A stretch of DNA of 64,000 nucleotides from Hyphomicrobiales bacterium (GTDB lineage: Bacteria > Pseudomonadota > Alphaproteobacteria > Parvibaculales > Parvibaculaceae), in NCBI GenBank assembly GCA_016124805.1, contig WGND01000001.1, forward strand, positions 248,001 to 312,000. The letters are read 5' to 3'. Under the pieces are notes generated by a model that had not been told where the DNA came from, did not search any database, and was given only the letters and a program-made list of their open reading frames with translations. Each line of letters opens with the position of its first letter. Within the stretch, counting starts at the first letter, position 1. Made by a program: the position numbers and the translations under genes. Below are positions 2,117 to 24,841 of this stretch, piece after piece.

Positions 2117-3705
2117 TGGCGATGTGGCGGGTCATATATATCTTCCTTATTCTTGTCGCCCTCAGTGTGCTGGCGATGTGGCTGGCCGACAATCCCGGCG
2201 ATCTCGTCATGCATTGGCGCGGCTATGAAATCCGCACGAGCTTTGTGGTCGGTCTCGGGCTGCTGGTGGTCGTCGCCTTTCTGGTTCTCTTTGCCTATCG
2301 GGTCACGAGCGCGATCATCACGAGCCCGCAGGGCGTGGCGTCGCTGCTGGCCGAGCGTCGTCGCCAGAAAGGTTTTTCGGCGCTGTCGCGCGGCATGGTG
2401 GCGGTGGCGGCAGGGGATGCTGTTGAAGCGCGACGCTATGCCGGACAGGCGCACAAGCTTCTGGACGCGCCGCCGCTGACATTGCTGCTGGCTGCGCAGG
2501 CCGCCCAGCTTGAAGGCGATGAGAGTGCCGCAAGCGGCTATTTCACGGCGATGCTCGAAGCGCCGGAAACAGAATTTCTGGGATTGCGCGGGCTCTTCAT
2601 TCAGGCGCGCCGGGCGGGTGATCGCGACCGGGCGCTGGAACTGGCGCGTCGTGCCTTCCGTCTGCGGGCAAATACGCCCTGGGCCTCGCAGGCCGTGTTT
2701 GAAATTGAATCGGCCAATGAAGACTGGTCTGCCGCCCTTCAGACACTCGACAAGACATTGTCAGCCAAGCTGATCAGCCGCGAAGATGCACGCCATCGCC
2801 GCGCGCTACTGCTGACGGCTCAGGCCATGACGGCGGAAGCTGCAGCGCGCAACCAGATCGGCGATGCCCGTCAGGCCGCTTTCGGAGAGGCGCTGACGCT
2901 GGCGCAGCAGGCGCTGTCGCTGGAGACCGATTTTGCGCCCGCCATCGCGCTCAATATCCGTCTCTGTGCGGCGCTCACCAAGACGCGGCGCGGCGTGAAG
3001 CTCGCCGAGGATGCCTGGGCGCGGGTGCCCCATCCTGATATTGCCGAAGCCTTCATGCAGCTGATCGATAGCGAAGCCGCCTTTGAACGGTTGGCCCGCG
3101 TGCGTCAGCTTGTCGGTCGCAACCCGGATCATGTGGAAAGCCATGTGCTGCTGGCACGCGCTGCCATTGAGGCTCGTGACTGGGCGACGGCGCGCGCAGC
3201 GCTTGTGCCCTATGTCGGCGCGGTGGCCAGCGAACAGCCTTCGCAGCGGATCTGTGAATTGATGGCTGATCTGGAGGATGGCGAACATGGGGATCGTGGC
3301 TCTGCCCGTGCCTGGCTCGCGCGCGCGCTGCATGCGCCGGAAGATGCCATGTGGATGGGGGAAAATTATCGTTCGAAGCGCTGGTCGCCGGTCAATCCGG
3401 TGACGGGCGAATTTGACGGCCTGGTCTGGCAGGCGCCGGTCGGAACCCTTTCGCCTCCCGGCGTGGCGCCGGTCATGCCGACATCGCCGGCAGCCGAAGC
3501 GCCTGCAGAGGGGGCGGTGCCTGCCGACGAAAAGGCTGAAGCTTCGCTCGAGACAGCAGCGCCTGCCACGCCGGAAAGCGAAACCGTCGAGGTGGAAGAG
3601 GTCGCAGACGAACCATTTGCCTTTTTCCCCGTGGTGCCGGACGATCCGGGTCCTGAGGGCGCGGAAGAAGACGCCCGTGAAGCGGAACGAGGGGGGACGT
3701 GGTGA
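2116..3705 (+). CDS. hemY: HemY N-terminal domain protein with TPR-like repeats
   Basis: The 529-residue protein starts with two membrane helices (about 4-22 and 42-62) separated by the short periplasmic loop characteristic of the HemY_N family. These are followed by helical TPR-like repeats on the cytoplasmic side and a Pro/Ala/Glu-rich tail from about residue 450. The segment RSKRWSPVNPVTGEFDGLVW near the tail is the conserved W-x-P-V-x-P-x-T-G-x-F-D signature of alphaproteobacterial HemY. The biochemical role in haem synthesis is not established, although it is genetically tied to hemC/hemD. This is not the protoporphyrinogen oxidase also called HemY in Gram-positives. Confidence 0.88.
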   Translation: MAMWRVIYIFLILVALSVLAMWLADNPGDLVMHWRGYEIRTSFVVGLGLLVVVAFLVLFAYRVTSAIITSPQGVASLLAERRRQKGFSALSRGMVAVAAGDAVEARRYAGQAHKLLDAPPLTLLLAAQAAQLEGDESAASGYFTAMLEAPETEFLGLRGLFIQARRAGDRDRALELARRAFRLRANTPWASQAVFEIESANEDWSAALQTLDKTLSAKLISREDARHRRALLLTAQAMTAEAAARNQIGDARQAAFGEALTLAQQALSLETDFAPAIALNIRLCAALTKTRRGVKLAEDAWARVPHPDIAEAFMQLIDSEAAFERLARVRQLVGRNPDHVESHVLLARAAIEARDWATARAALVPYVGAVASEQPSQRICELMADLEDGEHGDRGSARAWLARALHAPEDAMWMGENYRSKRWSPVNPVTGEFDGLVWQAPVGTLSPPGVAPVMPTSPAAEAPAEGAVPADEKAEASLETAAPATPESETVEVEEVADEPFAFFPVVPDDPGPEGAEEDAREAERGGTW

Positions 3706-4808
3706 AAAAATTTTTCGGGGGCGCGTTGACGCTCATCGCCCTGGCGCTGGTCATTATCGCCGTTTCCTTTGTGCGATTTGATATACCGCGCGAGGAACTT
3801 GCCAAAAAATATGCCAATGGGGCCTCGCAGTTTCTGATGCTGCCCGATGGTGCCACGGCGCATGTGCGCGACGAAGGCAACCGGGACGGACCGGCGCTGG
3901 TGCTCGTGCATGGCTCCAATGCCTCGCTGCATACCTGGGAGCCCTGGGTTGAACGGCTGGGGGACCGGTTCCGCATTGTCACGCTGGATATGCCGGGCCA
4001 TGGGCTGACGGGCGCTGTGCCCAGCGGCGATTACAGCCGGGCGGGCATGGTGGCCTTCACCCATGAAGTCGTCGAGATGCTGGGCCTGACGAAATTTGCC
4101 CTGGGTGGCAACAGCATGGGGGGCGGTGTGGCCGCTCTTTATGCCGAGACCTATCCCGATGAGCTGACGGCGCTCATTCTGGTGGATGCAGCGGGCATTC
4201 CGCGCGAACAGGTCAACAAGGACGGGATGCCGCTGGCTTTCCGTCTGGCGCGCATGCCGGTGCTCAACAAGATCATGCTTTATGTCACGCCGCGTTCGGT
4301 GGTGGCCGAGGGGCTGCACAAGGCCTTTCATGACCAGTCGCAGGTCACGCCCGAGATGGTGTCGCGCTATTATGATCTGGCGCTGATGGAAGGGAACCGC
4401 AAGGCGACGGTCGCGCGCTTTGCCAATTCTGATTACACCGATTCCACGGTTGCAGACGGGCTCAGCGCCCTCAAGATGCCGGTGCTGATCATGTGGGGCG
4501 ATCAGGATCGCCTGATCCCGGTCGAGATGGCCTCGGAGTTTGCTGACCGTATCCCGCAGGCCCAGACGGTCATTTATCAGGATGTCGGCCATATTCCGAT
4601 GGAGGAAGCCGCCGAGGCGAGTGCCGCCGATTTGCGCGGTTTTCTGGAATCAGCCCTGGCGGTTCAGGACATGGGAGAGAGCCGCGCCAGTCAGCCTGAT
4701 GAGCCGCAAGCCGGCGCCGTAACCGTGCCGGCGCTTGCGGGCAAGGGCGAGGTGGAGGTCATGCAGGGCTCGCCTATGGACGCTCCGGCAGAGGCGGTCG
4801 CCCCCTGA
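3702..4808 (+). CDS. Membrane-anchored alpha/beta hydrolase
   Basis: From the GTG at 3702 the protein has 368 residues. A Lys-rich start and one hydrophobic helix (about 5-23) anchor it, with the enzyme domain probably periplasmic. The oxyanion segment LVLVHGSNAS, the nucleophile elbow GNSMGG (Ser about 138), an acid in WGDQD (Asp about 269) and VGH (His about 297) complete the triad of an epoxide-hydrolase/MhpC-like alpha/beta hydrolase. The last 55 residues are a low-complexity tail. The start overlaps the hemY stop as GTGA, so I prefer 3702 to the GTG at 3699. The substrate cannot be told from sequence. Confidence 0.85.
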   Translation: MKKFFGGALTLIALALVIIAVSFVRFDIPREELAKKYANGASQFLMLPDGATAHVRDEGNRDGPALVLVHGSNASLHTWEPWVERLGDRFRIVTLDMPGHGLTGAVPSGDYSRAGMVAFTHEVVEMLGLTKFALGGNSMGGGVAALYAETYPDELTALILVDAAGIPREQVNKDGMPLAFRLARMPVLNKIMLYVTPRSVVAEGLHKAFHDQSQVTPEMVSRYYDLALMEGNRKATVARFANSDYTDSTVADGLSALKMPVLIMWGDQDRLIPVEMASEFADRIPQAQTVIYQDVGHIPMEEAAEASAADLRGFLESALAVQDMGESRASQPDEPQAGAVTVPALAGKGEVEVMQGSPMDAPAEAVAP

Positions 4809-4922
4809 GCGCGGATTTTTGCGAGACGGTTGCCAAAAGCCGCGCGGCAGGCTATCTCAGGGCCTCTTTCGGGATCACCCCCGCGCCAGTCCTTATGGTG
4901 CCGGGCCGGTGCGCCGGAGCGG

Positions 4923-4998
4923 GCCGCTTTAGCTCAGTTGGTAGAGCACATCATTCGTAATGATGGGGTCGGGTGTTCGAGTCACCCAAGCGGCACCA
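4923..4998 (+). tRNA. tRNA-Thr (CGU anticodon)
   Basis: The 76-base cloverleaf has acceptor GCCGCTT pairing with AAGCGGC, a D arm GCTCAGTTGGTAGAGC, anticodon stem CATCA/TGATG with loop TTCGTAA (anticodon CGT, reading ACG) and a T arm GGGTG-TTCGAGT-CACCC. It ends in discriminator A and an encoded CCA at 4996-4998. Its last 33 bases form most of the left copy of a 36-bp repeat that recurs at 10993-11028, so this gene was evidently the attachment site of the island to its right. The gene itself is intact. Confidence 0.97.
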
Positions 4999-5001
4999 TT
5001 T
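4966..5001 (+). repeat. attL-like copy of 36-bp direct repeat (tRNA-Thr 3' end)
   Basis: The repeat runs from GGGTC in the variable/T-arm region through the encoded CCA and three following T residues. It is identical over 36 of 36 positions to 10993-11028, and identity ends on both sides (G versus A before it, C versus T after it). A repeat that starts inside a tRNA and ends just past its 3' end is the classic core left by tyrosine-recombinase integration. Confidence 0.9.
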
Positions 5002-5064
5002 CTCGCGCTTTGCCCGGCGGGCGCCTTGGATATTGAGTGTCTTTAATCTTTCGCACGGTAGAGT

Positions 5065-6528
5065 TCATGCGCCAGATTGCTCCGGCAAAGATAAGTCGCG
5101 GGGCAGTATCAATATCACTCCAAGCCCGCCCATCTCCCGATTCTGGAGACGTATCGAGCCCCCATGATTTTTTATGACATCGCGCGCAATCGTTAATCCC
5201 AGTCCGACACCCGAAGCCCCACTGCCTCTTGACGGATCAAGGCGCCTGAATGGAGCAAACGCTTCTTCAATGAGATCTGTCCGAATGCCGGGTCCTCTAT
5301 CGTCAATCTCAATTCTTACGGCATCTTTCTCTATGTCGAGCTGAACAAAAGCGACTTTCCCGTATTTAATGGCATTATCAATCAAGTTCCAAAGAGCGCG
5401 TTTGAGAGATAAAGGATGGCCATGGATTTCAATATGATCCGGCCCGTTATAAGCGCAGTCTTTGCCTAGATCGTTTGCCTGATCCACAAGACTGATAAGC
5501 AAAGCGGCGATATCCAGGGTTTGCGAAGACATCGCTTCAGCATCACCGCTTGCAAAAGCCAATGTCGATTCAACCATCGCCTGCATGTCGTCAATCTCAT
5601 TGAGAAGGGAGAGCCTGTCCTCAATTTGCTCAGCGTTTTCGGCAGCAATTCTCACTCTCGTCAGAGAAGACCGAAGGTCGTGAGAGATCGCCGCCAGCAT
5701 TCGTGTGCGATCATTGATGAAATGAAACAGGCGCTTTTGGACCTCTTCAAATGCGACAGCAACCGGCACGAATTCTCCAAGCCCGCTCGTTGAAATGGGT
5801 ACAAAATCTCGTGTCGTTCCAATCTTGTTGGCTGCAACAAGAAAACGGTCGAGCGGCGAAAGAATGCGCCAAGCGGTTAGAGTTGAAAATATAGCAATGA
5901 TCAGACCACCCATAATCAGGGGACCAAAGGGAAACCCAGACGGCGCATTGCGTTTGTCAAATGGGTTTGGCCTAACATAAAGCCAGGTGCCGTCGAGACC
6001 TTGTATCGCGATAGCCAAATTTGAGGGCAGAAGTACTTCGGGTTGATTGGCAGCTAATGACGACTGATCAATATCTTTCGTGATGGATGTGGGAAGCAAT
6101 CTGATTTTGAAAGCATGATTGGGAAACGGGTATTTGACTGACGTCTCGCGAATTTCGATTGCCTGTATCTTGCCGCGGAGCTTTCCTTTCAGTGTCGTTT
6201 CCAATTTTTGGGCCGCCGGATTTAGATGCTCCACAGGGCCATTCCACGGGCGTTGAGGGCTCCATAAAAATGTAACCGGATCTTCGCGCATGACGGTGGA
6301 TAGAAAATCATTTCTCAGCGAATCCTCTTTTGAGAATATGTCCTCTGCAACCTCAGAAACATTGTTCGCGAGCCAATTTGTGCCATAGAAGTAAATTTCC
6401 GGACTGCCATAAAGCCACATTTGCGTCACGGCCTGGGCTTGAACGGCAATGAGAGACAGAGTGATCGCGAGCGCTATTTGCCAACGAATGCTGAGCCCAA
6501 AAACCCTGGCAAGAAGGTGATTTCTCAT
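5065..6528 (-). CDS. Two-component sensor histidine kinase (EnvZ/OmpR-type partner)
   Basis: The 487-residue kinase has a first membrane helix (about 15-35), a periplasmic domain of about 165 residues with no family I recognise, a second helix (about 203-222) and a HAMP-like linker. The H-box ISHDLRSSLT follows (His about 283), then an N-box WNLIDNAIKYG and G-boxes DDRGPGI and GVGLGL. The H-box lacks the usual Pro after the Arg (R-S-S-L instead of R-T-P-L), a minor oddity. It starts in a 4-bp ATGA overlap with the response-regulator stop, so the pair is co-translated. It lies 64 bases inside the left island boundary. The stimulus is unknown. Confidence 0.92.
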   Translation of the reverse strand: MRNHLLARVFGLSIRWQIALAITLSLIAVQAQAVTQMWLYGSPEIYFYGTNWLANNVSEVAEDIFSKEDSLRNDFLSTVMREDPVTFLWSPQRPWNGPVEHLNPAAQKLETTLKGKLRGKIQAIEIRETSVKYPFPNHAFKIRLLPTSITKDIDQSSLAANQPEVLLPSNLAIAIQGLDGTWLYVRPNPFDKRNAPSGFPFGPLIMGGLIIAIFSTLTAWRILSPLDRFLVAANKIGTTRDFVPISTSGLGEFVPVAVAFEEVQKRLFHFINDRTRMLAAISHDLRSSLTRVRIAAENAEQIEDRLSLLNEIDDMQAMVESTLAFASGDAEAMSSQTLDIAALLISLVDQANDLGKDCAYNGPDHIEIHGHPLSLKRALWNLIDNAIKYGKVAFVQLDIEKDAVRIEIDDRGPGIRTDLIEEAFAPFRRLDPSRGSGASGVGLGLTIARDVIKNHGGSIRLQNREMGGLGVILILPRDLSLPEQSGA

Positions 6529-7271
6529 TCGTGCTCTGACTGCTGTGCGCAGCCTTCGCTAACGATTGGCGTGAAGATATATCCGCCATTTCGTACTGTT
6601 TTTATCATTTGCGGATTTTGAGGGTCTATTTCGATCTTCCGTCTCAAACGCATGACCTCAACATCAATTGCGCGGTCCAGCGCAATGCTTGACCGGCCGT
6701 GGGCAAGATCAAGCAGTTGATCCCTGGTCAAAATCCTGTTCGGTGTTTCAACAAATACACGCAACAGGTCGAGTTCGCCCGTCGTTAATGCAACATAGCC
6801 GCCGGTGCGAGAGGTCAAAGTGCGCGTTCTTACATCCAATGACCAGCCATCAAATATAAACCTGGTAACTGGTTTTCTTGTTGCAGCGTTCTCTGGGAAA
6901 TTACCTCGTCGCCTGACGACGACACGCACTCTTGCAAGCAGTTCTCGGAGGCTGAACGGTTTGCAGATATAATCTTCCGCACCAATTTCCAAACCGATAA
7001 CTCGATCCGTTTCAGACGCAAGGGCCGTGAGCATGATCACGGGAATATTTCCGTTGCCACTCAAATCCTTTAGCAAAGAAATTCCGTTCTCACCTGTCAG
7101 CATAATATCCAAAATTATCAGATCAATTCGCGAGACGGAAAGTATGTCACGCATTTCAGTGCCGTCGGCAACAACGGTCACCCTCAGTCCGTGTTGCTCG
7201 AAAAATTTCGAGATTCCGTTTCGTATTTTCGGGTCATCATCGACGACCAAAATATGAGGCGAATGAGGCAT
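6525..7271 (-). CDS. OmpR-family response regulator
   Basis: The 248-residue protein has a receiver domain with the acidic pair DDD at 11-13, phospho-acceptor Asp about 55 in LIILDIML, the switch Thr about 82 and the conserved Lys about 104 in CKPFS. A C-terminal winged helix (about 140-240) contains the LTTGELDLLRV and MRLRRKIE recognition segments of OmpR/PhoB regulators. It overlaps the kinase gene downstream by 4 bp. The 714-bp gap ahead of it separates it from the divergently transcribed DUF1302 gene, a natural target of this regulator, though I cannot prove a binding site. Confidence 0.94.
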   Translation of the reverse strand: MPHSPHILVVDDDPKIRNGISKFFEQHGLRVTVVADGTEMRDILSVSRIDLIILDIMLTGENGISLLKDLSGNGNIPVIMLTALASETDRVIGLEIGAEDYICKPFSLRELLARVRVVVRRRGNFPENAATRKPVTRFIFDGWSLDVRTRTLTSRTGGYVALTTGELDLLRVFVETPNRILTRDQLLDLAHGRSSIALDRAIDVEVMRLRRKIEIDPQNPQMIKTVRNGGYIFTPIVSEGCAQQSEHE

Positions 7272-7514
7272 GCCTTTAATTTCGCTTCAGAGTTAGAAGT
7301 AAGCAAGTACCGAGTTGTAACCGACTGTTACAGCTCGGCCTCTCCTTGTTATCAATCCATTTGCGCGCTTTTTGGAAAAATCTGACACCTTTTGATTTGG
7401 CTAGAAACAGCGTTGTTTGTCGGCTTGCATGGTGTCATGCCTCGCTCACGCTGTGGCTTATTGCCGAGCATTATCGACCGCTTCCCGCATGCCAATGGTT
7501 CGTGAGCGCATGAG

Positions 7515-7530
7515 TTAAACACGTGTTTAA
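7515..7530. promoter_or_regulatory. Perfect 16-bp palindrome, possible operator
   Basis: TTAAACACGTGTTTAA is a perfect dyad lying between the divergent two-component and DUF1302 genes. A palindrome of this size in a divergent regulatory region suits a dimeric repressor or activator. The island's own PadR or OmpR-type regulator is a candidate, but OmpR-type proteins usually prefer direct repeats, so the binder is uncertain. Confidence 0.35.
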
Positions 7531-7847
7531 TGATGACGCGTCGGCCGACGGCGTCAGGAAAACCAAGTGCCCAAAGCTCTCTACTGCAGCGGGGATGCTG
7601 CACCTAAATCCATGAGTGACGATGTTGTTCAAGGAGACGCGTGATCGGAGAAAAATTCCAGGCGTTATGATTGGAGTGTATTTTATTCAGTGATGACTGC
7701 TGTCCACTTGCATCGCGCCTAGGCCCCACTTTTTTCACAGAAATGACAATATGCGAGCCAGCACCAGCGGGTCTGTATACGTATTTGTGTTCGACTGTGT
7801 TTCTCAAACAACGAAATATATAAATAAAAAATAATATTATACCTATG

Positions 7848-7853
7848 TATAAT
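7848..7853 (+). promoter_or_regulatory. Candidate -10 element upstream of the DUF1302 gene
   Basis: A TATAAT hexamer sits in an AT-rich stretch about 130 bases before the DUF1302 start. No good -35 hexamer is seen 16-18 bases upstream, which would fit an activator-dependent promoter, for example one driven by the neighbouring response regulator. AT-rich DNA gives such matches by chance, so this is weak. Confidence 0.25.
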
Positions 7854-7985
7854 TCAGTATTCACGCCTAAAAACAGGCTGTTAACTTGTTGAAAGAGTAC
7901 ATCCTCTCTTAATGTTTTGCCTCAGCTGCCCTTTCAGAAGCCTTCGTAAGGGTGCGGGCAGCGAAACAAATGGAGGGGGAAGCGC

Positions 7986-9875
7986 ATGCGCGCAGATATA
8001 ATAAGCAAAGTAATCATCGCCTCATTGACCGTCTTTATTGTCTCGAAGGCGCAGGCAGTTGAGATGCAAGTAGGAAAAGTTGATGTCGATATAAACACCA
8101 CTGTATCGATTGGCGCGAGCATGCGCACAGGCGGTCAGGATTGTTCAAAAATCTCGTCAGCGAACGGTGGATGCCCTGATTCAGTGTCACAACCAACCGT
8201 CTACGGCATTAACGACGATGATGGTAACGTCAACACAAAGCGATATGGCCTTATCTCGACAACTGTGAAGGCCGTCTCTGACATCGGGCTCAAATATGAA
8301 AATTATGGAGCCTTTTTTCGTGTTAAAGCCTTCTATGATTATTGGAATGCGGAAGAGCAGGGAAACAATGCTACCCGATTTGGAAATCGTTCTATGGACG
8401 ATGCCCAACGTGGAACAAACCCAACAGACTCCGCAGGCAGTGGCCTTGATCTCCTTGATGCCTTTGTTTACGGCAAATTTAGCGTAGCCGATGCGCCTCT
8501 CACACTTCGTCTCGGAAGTCAGGTCGTGAACTGGGGTGAAAGTGTTTTTATCACAGGCGGTATTAACTCGTATCTGCCTGTCGATGTCCAAGCGCTGAGA
8601 ACGCCGGGATCGGAAGTAAAAGACGCTCTCTTGCCAGAGGGCTCCCTCTTTTTCTCGTTGGGCCTGCCAGGCGAAGTGTCTATCGAGGGTTTCTACACAT
8701 ACGACTACAAAAAAACAAAGCTCGACGCGTGTGGCACTTTTTTCAGCACAACTGACGCTGCTTGTCAGGGCGGCGCATATGTCCTGAGTGTCGGGCCGGA
8801 TGATCCGGACACTTCAGTTGTCTATATTCCCCGCATTGCCGATGACAATGCCCGAGAGGATGGCCAGTATGGCCTTGCTCTGCGCTACTATGCTGATTGG
8901 ATGAATAACGGGACAGAACTCGGCCTCTATTTTGTCAACTATCATTCCAAGTTGCCAATTGGTACTTTTACAGCGGCAAATTTGGGTGATGTGTCTGGTG
9001 CATTCACCGGCAACGTAGCGCAGGATATAGTTGTCGGTTCCAACACCAAGGAGTATCAGAGTGTCTATGTGGAAGACATCAAAGAGTTTGGTTTGAGCTT
9101 CAATACGATACTCTCGAATGTTTTAGGCGGCACCGCACTTCAGGGTGAAATTCTCTACACTGTAGATATGCCGTTCCAGTTGTCTGATGTCGAAATTAAT
9201 GCAAATGACGTCGAAAACTATTTCACCAACTACAACCCTGGCCTAGGTGCTGCGTATGCAGGTGTTTTTGGTACGTCGGTTAGCAGCATCTATTCGGGAA
9301 GCTCTGTTGCTGAAGGTGATGTGATCCGCGGTTATTCAAGTTATGATGTCGTCACAGGACAACTTGGCACAACCAGCACATTTTCAGGCTCGTCTGCTCT
9401 GGCAAATCTGATCAACTCAGATCTGGTCGTCATACTCGGCAATGCTGGGTTTCAGTGGCTTCAGGATTATGAGGCATCAGAAGACTTTTTGGCAGTTGCG
9501 CGATCAGGAACAACACACAGCAATGCATTTACAGCCGCAATCCTTGGCAACAGTTGTGGTTGCGGTACTGTTCAGTATGCTGATGATTTTTCTTGGGGTT
9601 ATCGCATCGTGATGCTGGCTGACTACAACAATGTCTTTGATACGCCGTTCAAGGTTCAACCCTTTCTACAGTTCGGACATGATGTCCACGGCTACTCAGC
9701 CGGACCGAATGGTCCAGGGTTTGTGGAGGGCACAAAATCTGTCACCATCGGGACGAATGTCTCAAGAGATGCTTGGACTGCTTCGATAAGCTGGACCAAT
9801 CGTTTTGGGAACAAATACTACAACAGCTCGTGGGACAAAGATTTCGCCTCGGCCACTTTGTCTTATGCCTTCTGA
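7986..9875 (+). CDS. DUF1302 family outer-membrane protein
   Basis: The 629-residue protein has a signal peptide of about 24 residues ending SKAQA, then the N-terminal DUF1302 pattern (VDVDINTTVSIGASMRT). Gly/Tyr/Asp-rich beta-strand segments follow, with the family motif RLGSQVVNWGES near residue 177, and the chain ends in a barrel-like ATLSYAF with terminal aromatic. Family members are large outer-membrane proteins linked to uptake or turnover of hydrophobic compounds, often encoded beside DUF1329, YCF48-like and RND genes. Here it stands alone on the island, divergent from the two-component genes. A strong GGAGGGGGA ribosome site (7972-7980) fixes the start. Cysteines in the predicted extracellular loops are a minor oddity. 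Confidence 0.85.
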   Translation: MRADIISKVIIASLTVFIVSKAQAVEMQVGKVDVDINTTVSIGASMRTGGQDCSKISSANGGCPDSVSQPTVYGINDDDGNVNTKRYGLISTTVKAVSDIGLKYENYGAFFRVKAFYDYWNAEEQGNNATRFGNRSMDDAQRGTNPTDSAGSGLDLLDAFVYGKFSVADAPLTLRLGSQVVNWGESVFITGGINSYLPVDVQALRTPGSEVKDALLPEGSLFFSLGLPGEVSIEGFYTYDYKKTKLDACGTFFSTTDAACQGGAYVLSVGPDDPDTSVVYIPRIADDNAREDGQYGLALRYYADWMNNGTELGLYFVNYHSKLPIGTFTAANLGDVSGAFTGNVAQDIVVGSNTKEYQSVYVEDIKEFGLSFNTILSNVLGGTALQGEILYTVDMPFQLSDVEINANDVENYFTNYNPGLGAAYAGVFGTSVSSIYSGSSVAEGDVIRGYSSYDVVTGQLGTTSTFSGSSALANLINSDLVVILGNAGFQWLQDYEASEDFLAVARSGTTHSNAFTAAILGNSCGCGTVQYADDFSWGYRIVMLADYNNVFDTPFKVQPFLQFGHDVHGYSAGPNGPGFVEGTKSVTIGTNVSRDAWTASISWTNRFGNKYYNSSWDKDFASATLSYAF

Positions 9876-9902
9876 CTGAAGAATATTTTTACATGGATGA
9901 GA

Positions 9903-9931
9903 GGGGTCACATAAATGTGACCCCTTTTGTT
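9903..9931 (+). terminator. Rho-independent terminator after the DUF1302 gene
   Basis: A perfect 9-bp stem (GGGGTCACA at 9903-9911, TGTGACCCC at 9916-9924) with loop TAAA is followed by TTTTGTTT. It lies 27 bases past the DUF1302 stop, so that gene is probably monocistronic. Confidence 0.85.
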
Positions 9932-10154
9932 TGCAAAGACATCAATTCTCGGAAGTTCGAAAGGCCGAAGGCGCATGGAGACAATAGTGGAAAGCCGAGC
10001 GCCTTAAGATCGACCGCTCAGTGACGTCTGTAATTTTTTGTTACAAAATGACATGTTAAAAAATATCTCTGTAAAATTATTCACTCTATAATTTTTACTT
10101 ATACATGAGGCGCATTGCTCAACTAAAAATGCATAATATCGCAATGGGGAAATC

Positions 10155-10754
10155 ATGAAAGTTAAAGACATGATTCTGTGTCTGCTTCTGGACGGTCCGC
10201 TGTCTGGTTATGACATCAAAAAAAAGTACGAAATGACTTTCACCGACTATATTGATGTTGCTTTAAACAATATCTACACGGCCCTTATAGATCTTGATGA
10301 TGCGGGCTTTCTTGAGTGCGAACGAGTAGATCAGAATTCGCGACCCAACAAGAAACTCTATAATCTCACCGCCCTGGGCAGACGGACAGCCATAAGCGCG
10401 TTACTGCATGTGGAGCCGCGCCAGCAAATCACCTCTGATTTTCTTTTCATTATCAGCTTCGCCTCCCACATGCCGCAAACTCGCGTCAAGCAGCTCATTA
10501 ATCAAAGGCTGAATCAATTAAGCAAAATGCTGGTGCGGCAGAGCGTCAGATTTAGTAGTGACGAAAGAACGCCTTACGAGATTTTTGTAGAAGGCATGAT
10601 TGATGCCGCAATAAAGGCGGAGATCGAATATCTTGTTACAAGAAGGGATGATCTTCTGGAATCCAAAAAGGGAAACAAAACGAGAGCATTTCTCAATAAA
10701 GAGGAGATTCTGGAAGCAGCGACTGTGAAGGGCAAGCGTCTGCTCAAACAATAA
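10155..10754 (+). CDS. PadR family transcriptional regulator
   Basis: The 199-residue protein starts directly with the PadR winged helix: MILCLLLDGPLSGYDIKKK, then a recognition helix and wing in NIYTALIDLDDAGFLECERV and YNLTALGRR. A C-terminal helical dimerisation region (about 90-175) follows, as in longer PadR proteins such as those joined to Vir_act_alpha_C. PadR proteins repress by binding palindromes and release on small aromatic or lipophilic ligands. It lies at the right end of the island behind an AT-rich promoter region with TATAAT at 10087-10092. Regulation of itself and of the DUF1302 gene is plausible but inferred. Confidence 0.88.
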   Translation: MKVKDMILCLLLDGPLSGYDIKKKYEMTFTDYIDVALNNIYTALIDLDDAGFLECERVDQNSRPNKKLYNLTALGRRTAISALLHVEPRQQITSDFLFIISFASHMPQTRVKQLINQRLNQLSKMLVRQSVRFSSDERTPYEIFVEGMIDAAIKAEIEYLVTRRDDLLESKKGNKTRAFLNKEEILEAATVKGKRLLKQ

Positions 10755-11121
10755 TCTAGTGCCTTTTTGGATTACGGCACGTCTTTGCTTTGAATAAACC
10801 TCGGAAATGGGATGTGCTGCACCAAACAGTCAGGCTGCTGGCCATCCCGGAAGTCAGTCCGTCTCTCAGGCCAGACGGGAATCATCTCCGTTGAGACGAA
10901 AAAGGAAGGCGGGGTGATTTGTCAAATTCTGAAGCATTCCGATAGCCCCCTTTGCTGTCAGGTACAAATACGCTTTGGTACTTCATAATTTAGGGTCGGG
11001 TGTTCGAGTCACCCAAGCGGCACCATTTTTCACCCAAGCATTCAAAGCTGATCTATTTGATGCACGGCAAGAGCCCGACTATGTCATACTGCATGCCACT
11101 AGTTCCGTTCGGGGGTTTCCA
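10755..11121. other. Intergenic region holding the right island boundary
   Basis: No gene is supported in this 367-base stretch. It holds the end of the island, the 36-bp right repeat (10993-11028) and about 90 bases of original flanking DNA before the next gene. No integrase remnant could be recognised in any frame. Confidence 0.6.
10993..11028 (+). repeat. attR-like copy of 36-bp direct repeat (tRNA-Thr 3' end fragment)
   Basis: This is identical to 4966-5001, covering the T arm, acceptor 3' strand, CCA and TTT of tRNA-Thr. The 5' half of the tRNA is absent here, so this is a fragment and not a second tRNA gene. Open frames reading rightwards from it artificially lengthen the next gene. 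Confidence 0.9.
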
Positions 11122-12081
11122 TTGTCTGTGTCTTATCTGCGCCCATCTCGCCATGCGCTTCTGTGTTCTGTTTCCACGCTTGCGCTTCTTAGCGCCTTCT
11201 CGCCATCCGATATGGCGATGGCTGGGGAACAGGGGCGTCCTGTCTGGTCGCTGGAGCTTCAGGGCCAATATATGATCGATGCAAGCGGTGACGCGGAGAG
11301 TTTTGTCCAGTCGCCACTCAGCCAGATTACAGATCGGCAGATCGCGCCGCGCAATGGTTATCAGGGCTCTGCCAAGGCCACCTATCAGCCGCCGCTCTCG
11401 CCTTTCAGCTATGCGATGGCGATGCGCATCGGGCGCGGCCATCAGGCCGCCAAGACGTTCTCCGATACCCACCCCACGACCTTCAGCACCTTCAACCAGA
11501 ATGTGGATGCGACGGAACGCTCCACCCATTTTGTGGTCGATTTCGAGGTCGGCAAGGATATCGGCATTGGCCTTTTTGGCTCCGGCACTACAACGCTGGG
11601 TGGCGGCCTGCGCTATGCCCATTTCGACTCCGAAACGCGGGGAACATTCGCAACCTCTGAAAAATATACCAATGCGGGCAGCTTCAATCTTTCGCGCTAC
11701 TCCGATCTGGCCGGCCCCCGTTTCTTTGCCCGGTCGACCTCCCCCTTCAACGGGATGATGGGGCGCGAGGGCTTTTCGCTTGGCTTGAGTGCCGGGGTGG
11801 GCGTCCTCTTTGGCGAACAGAGCGCCGAGAACGACGTGACGGTCACATCAGGTTCCATTGTCAGCCATCGGCCTTTCTCGCGCAGCAAGCATGTTGCCGT
11901 GCCGGTGCTGGACGGATCGGCACAGCTGAACTGGGATATGCCCCATGCGCCGCTGAAACTGATGGCCGGTTACCGCTATGATGCTGCTTATGGCGCCGTT
12001 GATGCCGGTTATCTGGATGCCGATCGGCAGAACAGCGTGCAGCACGGCCCCTTCCTGGGTATCGTCTGGAGCTTCAACTAG
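11122..12081 (+). CDS. Outer-membrane beta-barrel protein (Lpg1974/MOMP-like)
   Basis: A signal peptide (RHALLCSVSTLALLSAFSPS, probable cleavage near AMA-GE) is followed by amphipathic strands and the closing pattern GYRYDAAYGAVDAGYLDADR ... GPFLGIVWSFN typical of Legionella major outer-membrane protein-like barrels. I place the start at TTG 11122, 7 bases after GGGGG; GTG 11128 is equally possible. The frame stays open back to 10975 through the right island repeat, but that extension would precede the signal peptide and is not credible. The protein is then 317-319 residues. The function beyond an outer-membrane barrel is unknown. Confidence 0.65.
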   Translation: MSVSYLRPSRHALLCSVSTLALLSAFSPSDMAMAGEQGRPVWSLELQGQYMIDASGDAESFVQSPLSQITDRQIAPRNGYQGSAKATYQPPLSPFSYAMAMRIGRGHQAAKTFSDTHPTTFSTFNQNVDATERSTHFVVDFEVGKDIGIGLFGSGTTTLGGGLRYAHFDSETRGTFATSEKYTNAGSFNLSRYSDLAGPRFFARSTSPFNGMMGREGFSLGLSAGVGVLFGEQSAENDVTVTSGSIVSHRPFSRSKHVAVPVLDGSAQLNWDMPHAPLKLMAGYRYDAAYGAVDAGYLDADRQNSVQHGPFLGIVWSFN

Positions 12082-14773: not shown

Positions 14774-16936
14774 ATGGCTGGGAAAACCTCCACCTCACTC
14801 TGTCTATCATTTGTCACGGCGACATCGCTTCTCGCCCTCTCATCGGCCTTTGCCGCCGAGCCTGACATTGCACCGACGCAGCTTGATGCCGTGACCGCAA
14901 CGGCAACACGCAGCGCAACAAGCCTCGACAATATCGCCGGGACGGTGTCGGTCATCGATGCTGAAACGCTTGAGCGCAACAATGCGCAGACCATCCGCGA
15001 TGCGGTGCGCTATGAACCGGGCATTTCCGTCAGCAGCCAGCCGACGCGAACAGGTGCAGGCAACTACACCATTCGCGGCATCAGCGACAATCGCGTGAAG
15101 CTTCTCATTGATGGTCAGAACGTGCCTGACTTCCCCGGCTCCAATGCGGGGGCGGGCACCTATACGCGCGATTTTGTTGATCTTGATGCCATCAAGCAGA
15201 TCGATATCATTCGGGGGCCAGCCTCGGCCCTTTATGGCAGTGATGCGATTGGCGGTATCGTCGCCTATGTGACCAAGGACCCGTCCGACTATCTCGATCT
15301 TGTCGGCAAGGACTGGTTTGTCAGTCTGAAGGGAGCCTATTCCAGCGCGGATACCAGCTTTTCGGAAACGGCAACGGGTGCGATGCGCGCCGATAATGTC
15401 GAAGTGCTGGGACTCTATACGCGCCGCGACGGCCATCAGGTCGAACCCAATAGCGACGCTATCGTCAATCCGCAGGATTACGCATCCAATAATTTTCTCG
15501 GCAAGCTCGTTTTCAATCTGCCCGATAATGACCGCCTGAAATTCACCGGCGAATTTCTCGACAAGCGCGTCGACACTGATCTGCAGACAGAGCTGAGCGG
15601 CACCGTGCTGGATTCGCAGGGTGAGGACACGACCAAGCGCACACGAGTGAGTGTGGATTATGAAATCGGCTTGCCGTTCTTTCTCGCCGATAGTGCCAGC
15701 TTCAAGGCCTATTACACAAAGCTTGATCGCAATGAACATACCGATCAGCTGCGTGTGTCGGGCGCCGACAATGTCCTGCGTGTGTCAGACAATGAGTTCC
15801 TGCAGGAAATATATGGCGGCGAAGCCCAGTTCAATCTGGCAAGTGACCTGTTTGGCCTGACCCATGCCTTCACTTATGGCGCCAGCTTTGATGTCACCAG
15901 TACATCGCGTCCCCGCAATCGCACGGAAACAAATCTCACAACCCTCACCACGACCAATGTGATTGCGGGCGAGACCTATCCCAACAAGAACTTCCCCGAT
16001 ACCGATACCTATAATGCGGGCCTCTTCCTGCAGGATGAAATGGTGCTTGGCCGTTTCACGGTGACGCCGGCGGTGCGCATCGACTATTACCATCTTGAGC
16101 CCAATCCGGATCAGGCTTTCCTCAATTCGAGTGGCGGTGCCTTCACGGTTGAGAGCGTGACCAAGGTGCCGGTGTCGCCCAAGCTCGGTGTCACCTATGC
16201 GGTCACGGAGACCTACAAGCTCTTTGGTCAATATGCGCATGGCTTCCGCGCGCCGCCCTATGACAATGCCAATTTCGGTTTCCGGAATTCGGTCTATGGC
16301 TATGAGATCATTCCCAATGGCAATTTGAAGCCGGAAACAAGTGACGGTTTTGAAGCTGGACTGCGCGGCCGGTTCGGCAATGGCAGCAGCTTCAGCGTAG
16401 CCGGCTTCTATAACAAGTATCAGGATTTTATCGACACGGTCACACTGGGCGTCTCGGGTGGCTTGCTGCAGTTCCAGTATCAGAACCTGCCAAATGTCAC
16501 GATCAAGGGCATTGAAGCCAAGGGAGAGTGGCGCTTCCATCCGGGCTGGTCGGTACTGGGCAGCGTTGCCTATGCCGATGGCGAGGATGAGGCGACGGGC
16601 AATCCCATCGACTCGGTTGATCCGCTCAAGCTTGTCGCCGGTCTTCGCTATACGAGTGAATATTGGGGCGCTGAACTCACGACGACGCATGCCTGGGAGC
16701 ATGATCAGGTGAGCAGCCCGACATATTACAAGACACCGTCCTATACGGTTGTCGACCTGACGGTCTATGTCGAAGTGATGCCTTCCTTCACCATCAATGC
16801 CGGTGTCTTCAATCTTCTGGACGAGACCTACACGCTCGCCCGTGACGTGAACGGCGTGGCAGCAAGCAGCGCGACGCTTGATCGCTATGTGCAGCCGGGC
16901 CGCAATCTCGGCGTTAATGCGACGATCCGCTTCTAG
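14774..16936 (+). CDS. TonB-dependent haem/haemoglobin receptor
   Basis: The 720-residue outer-membrane receptor has a signal peptide (cleavage near SSAFAA), a TonB-box region (PTQLDAVTATATRS), a plug domain (about 55-160, with RDAVRYEPGISV and IDIIRGPASALYGSDAIGG) and a 22-strand barrel ending in aromatic Phe. FRAPPYD and NGNLKPE match the FRAP/NPNL boxes of haem receptors. No His lies between those boxes, whereas classical HemR-type receptors have one, so haem ligation may differ. It is 11 bases upstream of tonB and in the same direction as the rest of the hmu operon; iron regulation via the upstream Fur-like box is likely. Confidence 0.92.
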   Translation: MAGKTSTSLCLSFVTATSLLALSSAFAAEPDIAPTQLDAVTATATRSATSLDNIAGTVSVIDAETLERNNAQTIRDAVRYEPGISVSSQPTRTGAGNYTIRGISDNRVKLLIDGQNVPDFPGSNAGAGTYTRDFVDLDAIKQIDIIRGPASALYGSDAIGGIVAYVTKDPSDYLDLVGKDWFVSLKGAYSSADTSFSETATGAMRADNVEVLGLYTRRDGHQVEPNSDAIVNPQDYASNNFLGKLVFNLPDNDRLKFTGEFLDKRVDTDLQTELSGTVLDSQGEDTTKRTRVSVDYEIGLPFFLADSASFKAYYTKLDRNEHTDQLRVSGADNVLRVSDNEFLQEIYGGEAQFNLASDLFGLTHAFTYGASFDVTSTSRPRNRTETNLTTLTTTNVIAGETYPNKNFPDTDTYNAGLFLQDEMVLGRFTVTPAVRIDYYHLEPNPDQAFLNSSGGAFTVESVTKVPVSPKLGVTYAVTETYKLFGQYAHGFRAPPYDNANFGFRNSVYGYEIIPNGNLKPETSDGFEAGLRGRFGNGSSFSVAGFYNKYQDFIDTVTLGVSGGLLQFQYQNLPNVTIKGIEAKGEWRFHPGWSVLGSVAYADGEDEATGNPIDSVDPLKLVAGLRYTSEYWGAELTTTHAWEHDQVSSPTYYKTPSYTVVDLTVYVEVMPSFTINAGVFNLLDETYTLARDVNGVAASSATLDRYVQPGRNLGVNATIRF

Positions 16937-16947
16937 GAGATCGCGCC

Positions 16948-17754
16948 ATGTCTCTTGCCGCCATCACAGACAGCAACCTTCCGGATCGGGGGCGACGTTC
17001 CTCGATGACCCCGATCCGTGGTCCCCGATTGCCTCTGTCGATGGCGGCATCCCTTGTCGTTCACCTGGCCCTGTTCAGCGGCGCGCTGATCTGGTTTTCC
17101 CCTGAGGGTGGCCTGTCGGAACCTGCAGGCACAGCCGCCACGGCGCGGATCTCCGGGCCGATTGAAATATCGCTGGTGGCCTGGTCGCCGCCCGCGCCAA
17201 AGCCTGTCGCCACGCCTGAAAAATCCGACCGTCCAAAACCCAAGCCAGCACCGCGCGAAACTGTTGTGGCAAAACCGGAGATGGCTGTTGTCAAAACTGC
17301 CCCTGCCAAAGAAGCGATTACGTCATCGCAGCCTGTCGCAACAGAGACAAATTCCGGCATGGCTGAGGCCTCAAAGGATTCTTCTGCCATGGCGGCAGGC
17401 GAGGCGGGCTCGCAAGCCGGTGCGGGCGACGGCAGCGCCAGCACTTCCCCTGCAGGCGAAAGCGCGGCGCCGGTCTTTGTGTCGGAGCCGAAATTTCGTG
17501 TGCCGCCCCGACCGCCTGTCTATCCGCTGCGGGCGCAGCGTCTGGGCCAACATGGCGAGGCGCTGATCCGCGCCCGACTCGACCGGCGAGGCATGCCTGC
17601 CGATGTGCGCCTCTGGAAAAGCACGGGCCATGTGTTGCTCGACAATGCGGCACTTGCAGCCGTGCGCCGCTGGCAATTTGAGCCGGCCCGCAGGCAGGGC
17701 ATTCCCGTTGAAGGCTGGGTTCAAATTCCCGTTCGTTTCGCACTCAAGAATTAA
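16948..17754 (+). CDS. tonB: TonB family energy transducer
   Basis: The 268-residue protein has one N-terminal membrane anchor (about 29-52, with the S-x-x-x-H motif as SLVVHLALF), a Pro/Lys-rich periplasm-spanning region (about 85-120), an Ala/Ser-rich linker and a C-terminal TonB domain (about 185-268) with YPLRAQRLGQHGEALIRARL and the final P-V-R-F strand. It transmits ExbB/ExbD proton-motive energy to the receptor. It lies between receptor and hmuS, so it is probably a dedicated haem-uptake TonB. No exbBD genes are in the window, so they must lie elsewhere. Confidence 0.92.
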   Translation: MSLAAITDSNLPDRGRRSSMTPIRGPRLPLSMAASLVVHLALFSGALIWFSPEGGLSEPAGTAATARISGPIEISLVAWSPPAPKPVATPEKSDRPKPKPAPRETVVAKPEMAVVKTAPAKEAITSSQPVATETNSGMAEASKDSSAMAAGEAGSQAGAGDGSASTSPAGESAAPVFVSEPKFRVPPRPPVYPLRAQRLGQHGEALIRARLDRRGMPADVRLWKSTGHVLLDNAALAAVRRWQFEPARRQGIPVEGWVQIPVRFALKN

Positions 17755-17773
17755 TCATGAAAGGTATGACGTG

Positions 17774-18838
17774 ATGATGGAAAACATGCAGAGAGAGGGA
17801 CGCGGCAATCTTGTCGAGCGGCGCGCAGATATTCTGTCGCGCGAACCCAGGCTGAGGGCGCGTGATCTGGCCTCGCGTCTTGGCATCAGCGAGGCGGAGC
17901 TTCTTGCCATCGGGACGCCCACCAGCCATGTGACGCCGCTGGCGGCCAACTGGCCGGGCATCATCGCCGATGTGTCAAAGCTTGGCTATGTTATGGCGCT
18001 CACGCGCAATGAATCCGTTGTCCATGAACGCAAGGGTGTTTATGGCAAGCTGGAAGGCGGCGCGCATGTGGGTCTGATTGTCGGCGACGATATTGATCTG
18101 CGTATTTTCTTCAGCCGTTGGCGTTTTGGTTTTGCCGTTGTGGAAACGGGCGAGGAGAGCGTTAAACGCAGCCTGCAGTTTTTCGACGCGCAGGGTGTTG
18201 CCGTTCACAAGATCTATCTGACGGATCAGTCGGATGTTCAGGCTTTTGACCGGCTTGTCAGTGAGCATCAGTCGCTGGAGCTGATCGCCGTTGAAACCGT
18301 GCCACCGGCAGCCGCACCCGTTGTGCTTCCCGATGCAGAGATTGATGTTGCCGGGTTTCGCCTGGCCTGGGATGGTCTGAAGGACACCCATGAATTTCAC
18401 GGGCTTCTCAACAAATTCAAGCTGCAGCGTTTGCAGGCCATGCGTCTGGCGGGTCACCGGCGCGCGCAGCGCGTGGCGCCTGCCGCTCTTCGTGATGCGC
18501 TGACTGAGGCTTCAAAAACCGATCTTCCCATCATGGTCTTTGTTGGCAATCACGGCATGATCCAGATCCATACAGGTCCTGTGACCCATCTCAAAGCCAT
18601 GGGGCCCTGGTATAATGTGCTCGACGACCGCTTCAATCTGCATCTGCGTGAAGACCATATCGGTTCTGTCTGGGTGGTGCGCAAACCGACCGATGATGGT
18701 GTCGTCACCTCGCTGGAAGTGTTTGACGCGCAGGGCGAGCTGATGGTCACGCTTTTTGGCAAGCGCAAGCCCGGCATGAAAGAGGATGCAGGCTGGCGCG
18801 CCGTTGTTGAGGGTGTTGCCGAAAGAGAGGTCGCCTGA
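17774..18838 (+). CDS. hmuS: HmuS/HemS haemin-handling protein
   Basis: The 354-residue cytosolic protein has the two repeated HemS/ChuS domains. The start region LRARDLASRLGISEAELLAI is typical; RNESVVHERKGVYG carries the His expected to ligate haem, and the second half repeats the pattern with FVGNHGMIQIHTG and VWVVRKPT. Such proteins bind incoming haem and either degrade it or pass it on. ATG 17774 follows AAGG; the open frame extends further upstream into tonB but that part makes no sense. Its TGA overlaps the hmuT ATG. Confidence 0.93.
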   Translation: MMENMQREGRGNLVERRADILSREPRLRARDLASRLGISEAELLAIGTPTSHVTPLAANWPGIIADVSKLGYVMALTRNESVVHERKGVYGKLEGGAHVGLIVGDDIDLRIFFSRWRFGFAVVETGEESVKRSLQFFDAQGVAVHKIYLTDQSDVQAFDRLVSEHQSLELIAVETVPPAAAPVVLPDAEIDVAGFRLAWDGLKDTHEFHGLLNKFKLQRLQAMRLAGHRRAQRVAPAALRDALTEASKTDLPIMVFVGNHGMIQIHTGPVTHLKAMGPWYNVLDDRFNLHLREDHIGSVWVVRKPTDDGVVTSLEVFDAQGELMVTLFGKRKPGMKEDAGWRAVVEGVAEREVA

Positions 18839-19692
18839 TGCGTTGTTCACTCTTCGCGCTTCTGGGTCTGCTGCTCAGCACCTTGCCGCTGCATGCGGCC
18901 GAACCTCTGCGCATCGTCTCGCTGGGTGGTGCGGTGACGGAAACAGTGCATGCGGTCGGTGCGGGCGATGCGCTGGTGGGGATCGACTCCACCAGCCTTT
19001 ATCCTGCTGATGATCGCAACCTGCCCGATGTGGGTTATGTCCGGCAGCTGGCTGCCGAGGGCATCCTGTCGCTTCGTCCGACATTGATCCTTGCCGGTCC
19101 TGAAGCAGGTCCGCCTGCCACGCTTGACCAGTTGAAAATCAGCGGCGTGCCTATGATGGTGTTGCCCTCAGGCTATGACCTGTCCTCAGTCACCCAACGG
19201 ATCAGACTGATTGGTCAGGCAACCGGGCATGCTGCGGCAGGTGAAAAGCTGGCGGCGGATGTCGACAGAGAGATGCAGATCGTTCAGGAAAAAATTGCAA
19301 CCCTGACGACAAAACCCCGTGTTCTCTTCCTGCTGCAGGCCGGTCGCGGGGCGCCGATGGTGTCGGGTGGCGGGACCGCCCTCGATGCGATGATCCGGCT
19401 GGCGGGCGGCATCAATGCCGTTCAGGGCTTTCAGGGATATAAGCCGCTGACGCCTGAAGCGCTGGCCGGGCTTGAGCCGGATTATATTCTTGTGACGACG
19501 GATACGAGTGAGGCGCTCGGTGGCAAGGCAAGCCTCGCCGAGATGCCGGGGATCAAACTCATGTCTGCGGCACGTGACGGGCGCATTATCGAAATGGATG
19601 CGCTGCTGCTCTCAGGCTTCGGTCCGCGTCTGCCCGAGGCAACCCGCCTGCTGGCTGCCGCACTCCATCCTGATGCCGCGGTGACCTGGTAA
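18838..19692 (+). CDS. hmuT: Haemin ABC transporter periplasmic binding protein
   Basis: The 284-residue protein has a signal peptide (about 1-20, ending LHAAEP) and a cluster-9 type III solute-binding fold. It starts RIVSLGGAVTETVHAVGAGD, with VGYVRQLAAEGILSLRPTLI carrying the Tyr that normally ligates haem in HmuT/ShuT. It binds haem in the periplasm and hands it to HmuUV. It overlaps hmuS and hmuU by one base each (TGATG/TAATG), so the three are translationally coupled. Confidence 0.93.
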   Translation: MRCSLFALLGLLLSTLPLHAAEPLRIVSLGGAVTETVHAVGAGDALVGIDSTSLYPADDRNLPDVGYVRQLAAEGILSLRPTLILAGPEAGPPATLDQLKISGVPMMVLPSGYDLSSVTQRIRLIGQATGHAAAGEKLAADVDREMQIVQEKIATLTTKPRVLFLLQAGRGAPMVSGGGTALDAMIRLAGGINAVQGFQGYKPLTPEALAGLEPDYILVTTDTSEALGGKASLAEMPGIKLMSAARDGRIIEMDALLLSGFGPRLPEATRLLAAALHPDAAVTW

Positions 19693-20741
19693 TGCGGGCA
19701 GCTGTCCTCACGCGTCCTGCGTCTGATCTCTGGCGTCGTCCCGAGACGCTGCTGGTCATGCTCGGGTTGCTGTTGGTGGCAAGCTTTGTGATGTCGCTCA
19801 GCATCGGGGCGATGGCGATTGGCCCGGTTGATATTCTGCTCAGCCTGTTCGGCCTGACCAGCGACCATACCGTTGCGTCTGTGGTGATGGAGCTTCGGTT
19901 GCCTCGTGCCTTGATGGCGGTGGTGACGGGGGCAGCGCTTGGTGTTTCGGGGGCCGCCCTTCAGGGGCTCTTTCGAAATCCACTGGCTGATCCGGGCTTG
20001 ATCGGTGTCTCGAGTGGCGCGGCGCTGGGGGCGGTCTGCGCCATTGTGCTGGGTGCCACGCTGACATTGTGGTTGCCCCTTTTCGGGTCGCGCTTTCTTG
20101 TGCCGGTTTTCGCCTTTGCAGGTGCCCTGGCTGCCTGCCTTGCCACACAGATGCTTGCCCGGCGACATGGCTCCACCGCCTTGTTGCTGCTCGGCGGGAT
20201 TGCGATCAATGCGCTGGCAGGAGCCATGACGGGCTTCTTCGTCTATGCCAGCAATGACAACCAGCTGCGCGACTTCACCTTCTGGAGCATGGGCAGTCTG
20301 GCGGCGGCGGGATGGCAGGGTCTTTATATCGCTGTGCCGATGACTTTGCCGGCGCTTTATCTGATCTGGACCTCCGCCCGCTCGCTCGATGCAATGCTGC
20401 TCGGAGAGCGAGAAGCGCGCCATCTCGGGGTCGATGTCGTGTGGCTCAAGCGGCGCATATTCATCTGCTCGGCGCTGGCGGTCGGCATCTCCGTGGCGCT
20501 TTGCGGCGTCATCGCCTTTGTCGGCGTTGTCGTGCCCCATCTCGTCCGTCTGGTGGCGGGCCCTGCTCATCGTCTCGTCCTGCCCGGCTCGGCCATGCTC
20601 GGCGGCGCGCTTCTTCTGCTGGCTGACAGTCTGGCGCGGGTCAGCGTGGCGCCGGCCGAGCTTCCGGTCGGGCTTGTAACCGCCGCCCTCGGCAGCCCCT
20701 TCTTCATCTGGCTTCTGATGCGGCAAAGGAGCTTTTCATGA
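19692..20741 (+). CDS. hmuU: Haemin ABC transporter permease
   Basis: The 349-residue membrane protein belongs to the FecCD/BtuC family with about ten helices. Conserved segments are LRLPRALMAVVTGAALGVSG, GLFRNPLADPGLIGVSSGAA, the coupling region GEREARHLGVDV and GVIAFVGVVVPHLVRLV. It forms the dimeric channel through which HmuV drives haem into the cytosol. The ATG overlaps the hmuT stop and the 3' end overlaps hmuV by 4 bp (ATGA). Confidence 0.95.
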   Translation: MRAAVLTRPASDLWRRPETLLVMLGLLLVASFVMSLSIGAMAIGPVDILLSLFGLTSDHTVASVVMELRLPRALMAVVTGAALGVSGAALQGLFRNPLADPGLIGVSSGAALGAVCAIVLGATLTLWLPLFGSRFLVPVFAFAGALAACLATQMLARRHGSTALLLLGGIAINALAGAMTGFFVYASNDNQLRDFTFWSMGSLAAAGWQGLYIAVPMTLPALYLIWTSARSLDAMLLGEREARHLGVDVVWLKRRIFICSALAVGISVALCGVIAFVGVVVPHLVRLVAGPAHRLVLPGSAMLGGALLLLADSLARVSVAPAELPVGLVTAALGSPFFIWLLMRQRSFS

Positions 20742-24271: not shown

Positions 24272-24841
24272 ATGAGCGCGACTGAAAAAGACAAACCGAT
24301 AAAAACAAAATCGCTTCCGGCGGGCCCCTTGCCGGGCTCGCTTGTCGGCATACCGGCAGCTCATGGCAAGAAGCTGCAACTGCTGATGGGCTTGCTGGAT
24401 GAGGTGAGCCGACTTCATTACAGCCTGTCGGCCGTGGCCGAGCGCATTCATGAAAGCGGGGAGGCCGGATCGGCGCGCCGCGCATTGCTGCGTGCATTGG
24501 TCGAGCTCGGCGCCCACACGGTGCCCGACCTTGCGCGCATGCGCTCGGTGTCGCGCCAGTTCATCCAGATGGAAGTGAACGGACTGCTGGCGGATGGCTT
24601 CGTGGAATATGTCGATAATCCCGCTCATAAGCGGTCCAAATTTGTGCGGATTACGCCGAAGGGGTTTGCGCTTTACAAGGCTTTGCGCCATCGCGAGGAG
24701 CCATTGGGGCAATGGCTTGTGGATACCTTTTCAAAATCCGATCTTCGAACGGCGATGGACTTTCTTGAGCGGTTGCGTCTACGGGCGGATGATTTTGTGC
24801 CCGGCATGCCTGCCGTACCGGCGGAGAGCGAGCCTGACTGA
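24272..24841 (+). CDS. MarR-type winged-helix regulator
   Basis: From ATG 24272 (a TTG at 24263 is also in frame) the protein has 189 residues. A basic tail is followed by helices, then a winged helix: RRALLRALVELGAHTVPDLA, recognition helix SRQFIQMEVNGLLADGFVEY, and wing NPAHKRSKFVRITPKGFAL. The typical MarR D-x-R wing is modified to HKRSKF. A C-terminal helix region would dimerise. The upstream 17-bp palindrome is a probable autoregulatory operator. The downstream gene is a copper chaperone-like protein with its own gap, so co-regulation is only possible. Confidence 0.85.
   Translation: MSATEKDKPIKTKSLPAGPLPGSLVGIPAAHGKKLQLLMGLLDEVSRLHYSLSAVAERIHESGEAGSARRALLRALVELGAHTVPDLARMRSVSRQFIQMEVNGLLADGFVEYVDNPAHKRSKFVRITPKGFALYKALRHREEPLGQWLVDTFSKSDLRTAMDFLERLRLRADDFVPGMPAVPAESEPD

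Follow-up and report, generated by a model that had tools for sequence, protein, structure and literature searches.

The 64-kb window (by which we mean the whole stretch of DNA analyzed) contains a complete tRNA-Thr(CGT) gene, preceded by a conserved hydrolase gene, and the 3' end of this tRNA is repeated some 6 kb downstream. Between the two copies lie four genes, all with open and intact reading frames, which encode a sensor histidine kinase, an OmpR-type response regulator, a DUF1302 outer-membrane barrel and a PadR-family regulator (Table 1). An earlier reading of this locus, made from the sequence only, was right in placing one outer-membrane protein here, but it counted two regulators' worth of signaling genes, and there are three regulatory genes (kinase, OmpR-type and PadR). 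To the right of the island, the stretch from 14774 to 21523 holds genes for a TonB receptor, a HemS/ChuX-like protein and an ABC ATPase, which is probably a haem-uptake cluster, and this is followed by a kinase-HerA pair conserved in relatives.

Table 1. Positions, in the window, of the island, its boundaries and the neighboring genes discussed in the text
Feature	Position	Strand	Evidence or remark
Alpha/beta hydrolase, conserved left flank	3699-4808	+	Pfam Abhydrolase_1; homologue in 38 of 40 family genomes, including the window's own
tRNA-Thr(CGT), integration target, still complete	4923-4998	+	ARAGORN; also in 36 of 38 relative loci
36-bp direct repeat, proximal (attL-like)	4966-5001	+	
Sensor histidine kinase, EnvZ-like	5065-6528	-	Pfam HATPase_c 6e-22; HisKA just under the cut-off; GC3 0.49
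OmpR-type response regulator	6525-7271	-	Response_reg and Trans_reg_C; 4-bp overlap with the kinase gene; GC3 0.49
DUF1302 outer-membrane barrel	7986-9875	+	PF06980 1e-148; divergent from the two-component genes
PadR-family regulator	10155-10754	+	PF03551 1e-12; GC3 0.51
36-bp direct repeat, distal (attR-like)	10993-11028	+	
Right-junction sequence	11026 onward		...TTTTTCACCC
Legionella_OMP-like barrel, first gene right of the island	11125-12081	+	PF05150 7.5e-07
PCuAC-DUF1329 gap, about 0.3 kb	25443-25765		DUF1302 gene there in 20 of 20 comparable relatives
Resident DUF1329, usual DUF1302 neighbor missing	25766-27142	+	PF07044 3e-133; 77% identical to the G034 gene

The direct repeat is exact over 36 bp, with the starts of the two copies 6,027 bp apart, just as the sequence-only reading had stated, and it continues past one mismatch for two more matching bases (38 of 39 positions identical). 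It is the longest exact repeat within the window, and no repeat exceeded 15 bp in 200 dinucleotide-block shuffles of positions 4000 to 12000. The proximal copy consists of the 3' part of the tRNA followed by TTT. Throughout the window's genome (20 contigs, 99.76% complete) the T-arm-to-CCA pattern is found at two places, namely the two repeat copies, and a search for other copies of the 36-mer adjoining integrases, which had been proposed from the sequence, found no further copy in this genome. Only one other of the 40 family genomes, G004, has the pattern twice. We considered that the distal repeat might reach into the anticodon loop (TTCATAAT versus TTCGTAAT) and rejected this, as the resemblance is not significant (0.25 and 0.054).

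The two repeat copies also bound a change in composition. The GC content of the island is 0.475, which is lower than in any of 112 windows of the same size from its own genome (0.576 ± 0.035), a non-random sample of 177 kb made up of the rest of the 64-kb window and of stretches mostly around integrase or DUF1302 genes; that the enclosed DNA is AT-richer than its flanks, as had been noticed earlier, is thus confirmed. GC3 is 0.49-0.51 in the four island genes, compared with 0.66-0.74 in the five flanking genes that were measured. Normalized tetranucleotide usage is not unusual, 29 of the 112 windows being as far or further from the norm. This AT-rich island of ~6 kb is probably foreign DNA.

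The AlphaFold model of the DUF1302 product is a β-barrel (pLDDT 81, pTM 0.80). When aligned to the PDB with VIA-align, OprD/Occ-type porins rank first (Z 19.4 over 311 residues, 3.2 Å, about 10% identity), and the top Foldseek matches are Campylobacter MOMP and AlgE, with E about 1e-10; a sequence search with the DUF1302 profile (E ≤ 0.01) gave no solved structure. As modeled, the protein has a porin-like fold, a structural likeness that gives the fold and not the substrate. A PadR gene stands beside a DUF1302 gene at five further loci in the family (C19 of the window's genome, C94 of G034, and L233, L239 and L240, which are three of 29 DUF1302 loci fetched later), and we therefore regard the two as a recurrent pair. 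At the C19 locus (L130, G000:C19:50000-62000), two DUF1302 genes, one of 880 aa, adjoin the PadR gene.

We compared the locus with that of 38 relatives, 37 of which were located by the hydrolase gene and one (G021, where the hydrolase match is weak) by the tRNA pattern. In 33 of the 36 loci in which tRNA-Thr(CGT) was located, no second copy of the tRNA 3' end is present within the fetched stretch at up to eight mismatches, several of these stretches being short because of contig ends. Two relatives from a genus other than the window's have islands at this tRNA, beside the same hydrolase gene: a 14.2-kb island bounded by a 52-bp exact repeat in G004 (L104, G004:C42) and a 9.3-kb island whose repeat has one mismatch in G005 (L105, G005:C8). 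Each encodes an integrase (387 and 397 aa, 63% identical to each other) with Arm-DNA-bind_3 and Phage_integrase domains. Methylase or restriction genes are present as well, as are genes for Prim-Pol or VapE proteins; G005 has a C5 methylase gene adjoined by two genes that match BglII endonuclease. In this family, integrase-bearing elements thus target the tRNA and, counting the window's own, 3 of the 37 genomes with a located tRNA have it occupied, by integrase-bearing and integrase-less islands. A second copy in G008 was considered as a decayed att repeat and dropped, since most of the tRNA is repeated there in degenerate form. This copy lies about 1.5 kb from the gene (at about 3800-3870 of L121 reverse-complemented), has TTT in place of the CGT anticodon, and is not called by ARAGORN. 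The empty site that had been predicted, in which the tRNA would be followed directly by the barrel gene at the right of our island, was not seen: the barrel gene is unmatched (E ≤ 1e-4) across the 38 relative loci, where the right flanks differ, and a contig scan with its protein found no relative.

None of the eight PF00589 matches in the window's genome falls inside the island; the two strongest, judging by rank and mutual similarity, look like XerC/XerD. When ten integrases (the eight own and two from relatives) were searched against the island by tblastn, the best piece (E 0.008, 26.2 bits, 24% identity over 130 columns) lay inside the kinase gene, on the kinase strand. The best E among 30 shuffled islands was 0.012, and no shuffle reached 0.008; we nevertheless treat this piece as a chance match, since the gene that it overlaps is intact and belongs to another family. 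The sequence-only reading that no recombinase can be seen is therefore borne out, there being neither a PF00589 match nor a credible remnant in the island. Elsewhere in the genome, L125 (G000:C4:44000-60000) has two tyrosine-integrase genes, one of them about 1.3 kb from a tRNA-Ala(GGC) gene (L125 14781-14856), and is possibly another island.

Nor does the island hold a conjugation or mobilization gene, its four genes being those named above. Of the small ORFs listed for two intergenic stretches, two were scanned against PHROGs, with no match. As candidates for defense cargo, the kinase and the response regulator have only weak PADLOC matches (E 0.0005-0.009), and as candidates for phage cargo these two and PadR match PHROGs of the unknown, 'other' or transcription categories, none of them structural or a recombinase. 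The viral contigs contain no relative of the integrase or of the DUF1302 protein, and the exact 33-mer is absent from them. On plasmids, only DUF1302 and PadR have homologues at the protein level, below 60% identity, and at the DNA level, among the matches listed (20 of 30 records), there is only a 115-base piece of response-regulator genes.

As for the origin of the cargo, the island DUF1302 protein is 69-71% identical to proteins encoded on C2 of G022 and C16 of G034, with which it forms a 100/100 clade. These two genes are found at other loci and have a GC3 of 0.77-0.80; that of G022 lies in DNA of ordinary GC, with no tRNA in the 35 kb fetched, and that of G034 lies at a contig end. The nearest relatives found belong to the same genus, and so the gene need not have come from afar. 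Homologues of the kinase reach 37-40% identity in the 40 family genomes, over the C-terminal part only, and 29-45% among the matches listed from 385 genomes of the class. For PadR, the best homologues in these 385 genomes (five of which are from the family, own included) are 38-39% identical. From the low GC3 of the island we infer a donor of lower GC, which was not found.

The repeats, the deviant composition, the absence of a recombinase and the use of the same tRNA by integrase-bearing islands in two relatives are direct observations, and we consider it likely (a probability of roughly 0.8) that they reflect an island which was inserted by a tyrosine integrase and later lost that integrase, leaving a CIME-like stranded remnant with intact cargo. 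Recombination of attP with attB would have placed the island in the 3' end of tRNA-Thr(CGT), so that the tRNA was made whole by the proximal repeat, and the distal repeat would be its displaced original end. The integrase, presumably of the tyrosine class, would then have been lost, either through a deletion inside the island or when an integrase-bearing tandem partner departed, so that two att-like repeats are left around an intact cargo that would now be immobile. The two-component system, perhaps together with PadR, may control the DUF1302 porin-like channel, whose substrate would likewise be a matter of inference. Some points count against this reading. In the islands of G004 and G005 the repeats start within the anticodon loop, which is 13 bases upstream of the start of ours, and for this reason we have to assume another integrase, another crossover point or a decayed copy; the ordinary tetranucleotide usage and the same-genus relatives of the island DUF1302 weigh on this side as well. 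The integrases at the same tRNA in these two relatives support the earlier proposal that the tRNA island was made by a tyrosine integrase, and its description as a possible cargo-only remnant fits as well.

The same proposal had named a second possibility, a small satellite-like element that depends for its movement on an integrase supplied in trans by another element using the same tRNA-Thr site. In its favor, neither repeat is damaged, all four genes are open, and integrases for tRNA-Thr(CGT) do exist in the family. However, homologues of these (E ≤ 1e-40) are confined to G004 and G005 among the 40 family genomes; by E-value, the nearest integrase of the window's own genome is only 26-27% identical, and no further copy of the repeat stands there beside an integrase. 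That no helper is visible in this genome argues against movement in trans, as does the lack of close copies of the kinase or DUF1302 gene in other islands of the 40 family genomes (at most 71% identity for DUF1302, and about 40% over part of the protein for the kinase), or of the exact 33-mer in any viral contig. We thus find this suggestion unsupported and consider it improbable.

It is less probable still that the repeat was made without an integrase, for example if foreign DNA was inserted by homologous or illegitimate recombination and the tRNA end was duplicated in the process. While the whole-tRNA-like copy in G008 shows that copies can arise in other ways, the repeat in the window comprises just the tRNA 3' end, much like those of the integrase-bearing islands in G004 and G005, and it bounds the change in composition. 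Least credible of all is that the repeat is incidental and the island genes have belonged to the locus since ancestral times. Many relatives also have a kinase gene and a DUF1302 gene downstream of the tRNA, but these are different genes, and the window has its resident kinase and HerA genes separately, at 21619-24179. The clade that unites the island DUF1302 with two genes at other loci and the GC3 of the island likewise speak against residence.

The preferred reading, that of a remnant whose integrase was lost, places the island among elements that have been described elsewhere. CIMEs are defined, in the passages devoted to them, as decayed ICE or IME remnants which keep attL and attR but have lost the genes for integration and transfer (PMC5704250, PMC7563491), and published examples are given as 1.2-13 kb (PMC7563491). 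Our island resembles them in the pair of att-like repeats that mark the target's 3' end, in carrying cargo only, with no gene for recombination, conjugation or mobilization, and in a size within this range; unlike the CIMEs described there, it has no parent element and no tandem ICE or IME in sight. We chose the term CIME-like because these structural features are present; descent from an ICE or IME and cis-mobilization would have to be added for a CIME proper. In Dehalococcoides, as reported in the account consulted, 15 islands without an integration module are found at one site in ssrA (PMC3146451). Like these, our island is integrase-less and occupies a site also used by integrase-bearing islands of relatives; unlike them (the recombinase there is a serine recombinase), its site is tRNA-Thr and the integrases of its relatives are of the tyrosine type. 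In the section on Sinorhizobium meliloti that bears on this, another tRNA-Thr gene (GGU) is named as an integration hot spot (PMC11476347). With CIMEs, integrase-less ssrA islands and a tRNA-Thr hot spot already published, this kind of island is known. Among the papers that a literature search on Parvibaculum genomic islands and integrases listed, none has a title concerned with such an island.

With the G004 and G005 islands, ours shares the tRNA, the gene on the left flank and a direct repeat of the tRNA 3' end, and it differs from them in having no integrase, Prim-Pol or VapE-type protein, methylase or restriction genes. The hallmark of Prim-Pol/VapE-type elements, an Arm-DNA-bind_3 integrase together with a primase or VapE, is thus present in both relatives and absent here. 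As in a tRNA island with its own integrase, the tRNA 3' end is duplicated at the far boundary, but no integrase lies inside. In Castellaniella defragrans, the published description of ameABCD has AmeA as a DUF1302 and AmeB as a DUF1329 protein, linked to an RND pump (PMC6394551); compared with the system so described, the island has DUF1302 in common, which stands with regulators only and has no DUF1329 or RND pump gene beside it.

The part most worth following is a missing resident DUF1302 gene. In 17 relatives, the conserved kinase-HerA pair starts 1.4-4.1 kb after the tRNA, whereas the kinase gene in the window starts 16.6 kb after it. Compared with those of G034, the resident kinase is 67% and the resident HerA 73% identical, and the gene order is kept in the window, namely kinase, HerA, PCuAC, DUF1329 and YCF48-like, with the PCuAC-DUF1329 part at 24594-27142. 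DUF1329 lies within the fetched stretch of 20 of the 38 relatives (it is not reached or is absent elsewhere), and in all 20 a DUF1302 match starts 2.1-3.2 kb upstream of it. In the window, the space between PCuAC and DUF1329 is only about 0.3 kb, and the other DUF1302 genes of this genome, on C19 and C13, share 30-37% identity with the G034 resident gene; the resident copy thus seems to have been lost. The island DUF1302 is 43% identical to the G034 resident gene and belongs to a different clade. This absence should be read with caution, as the slot itself varies: 7 of the 20 relatives carry in it a DUF1302 only 30-36% identical to that of G034, and the one in G014 falls outside the main resident clade.

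A possible but unlikely scenario is that the island porin arrived, that the resident DUF1302 was then lost and that the host has come to rely on the copy in the island. On one alternative reading, the resident gene was lost independently, with the paralogues on C13 or C19 standing in.

Our analysis shows tRNA-Thr(CGT) as a site of integration in this family, and the island in the window is a clear example of what stays behind after loss of the integrase. A true replacement would make a testable case in which a resident function has passed to an accessory mobile gene; loss of the integrase and loss of the resident partner would together have fixed a mobile element within an envelope transport system.
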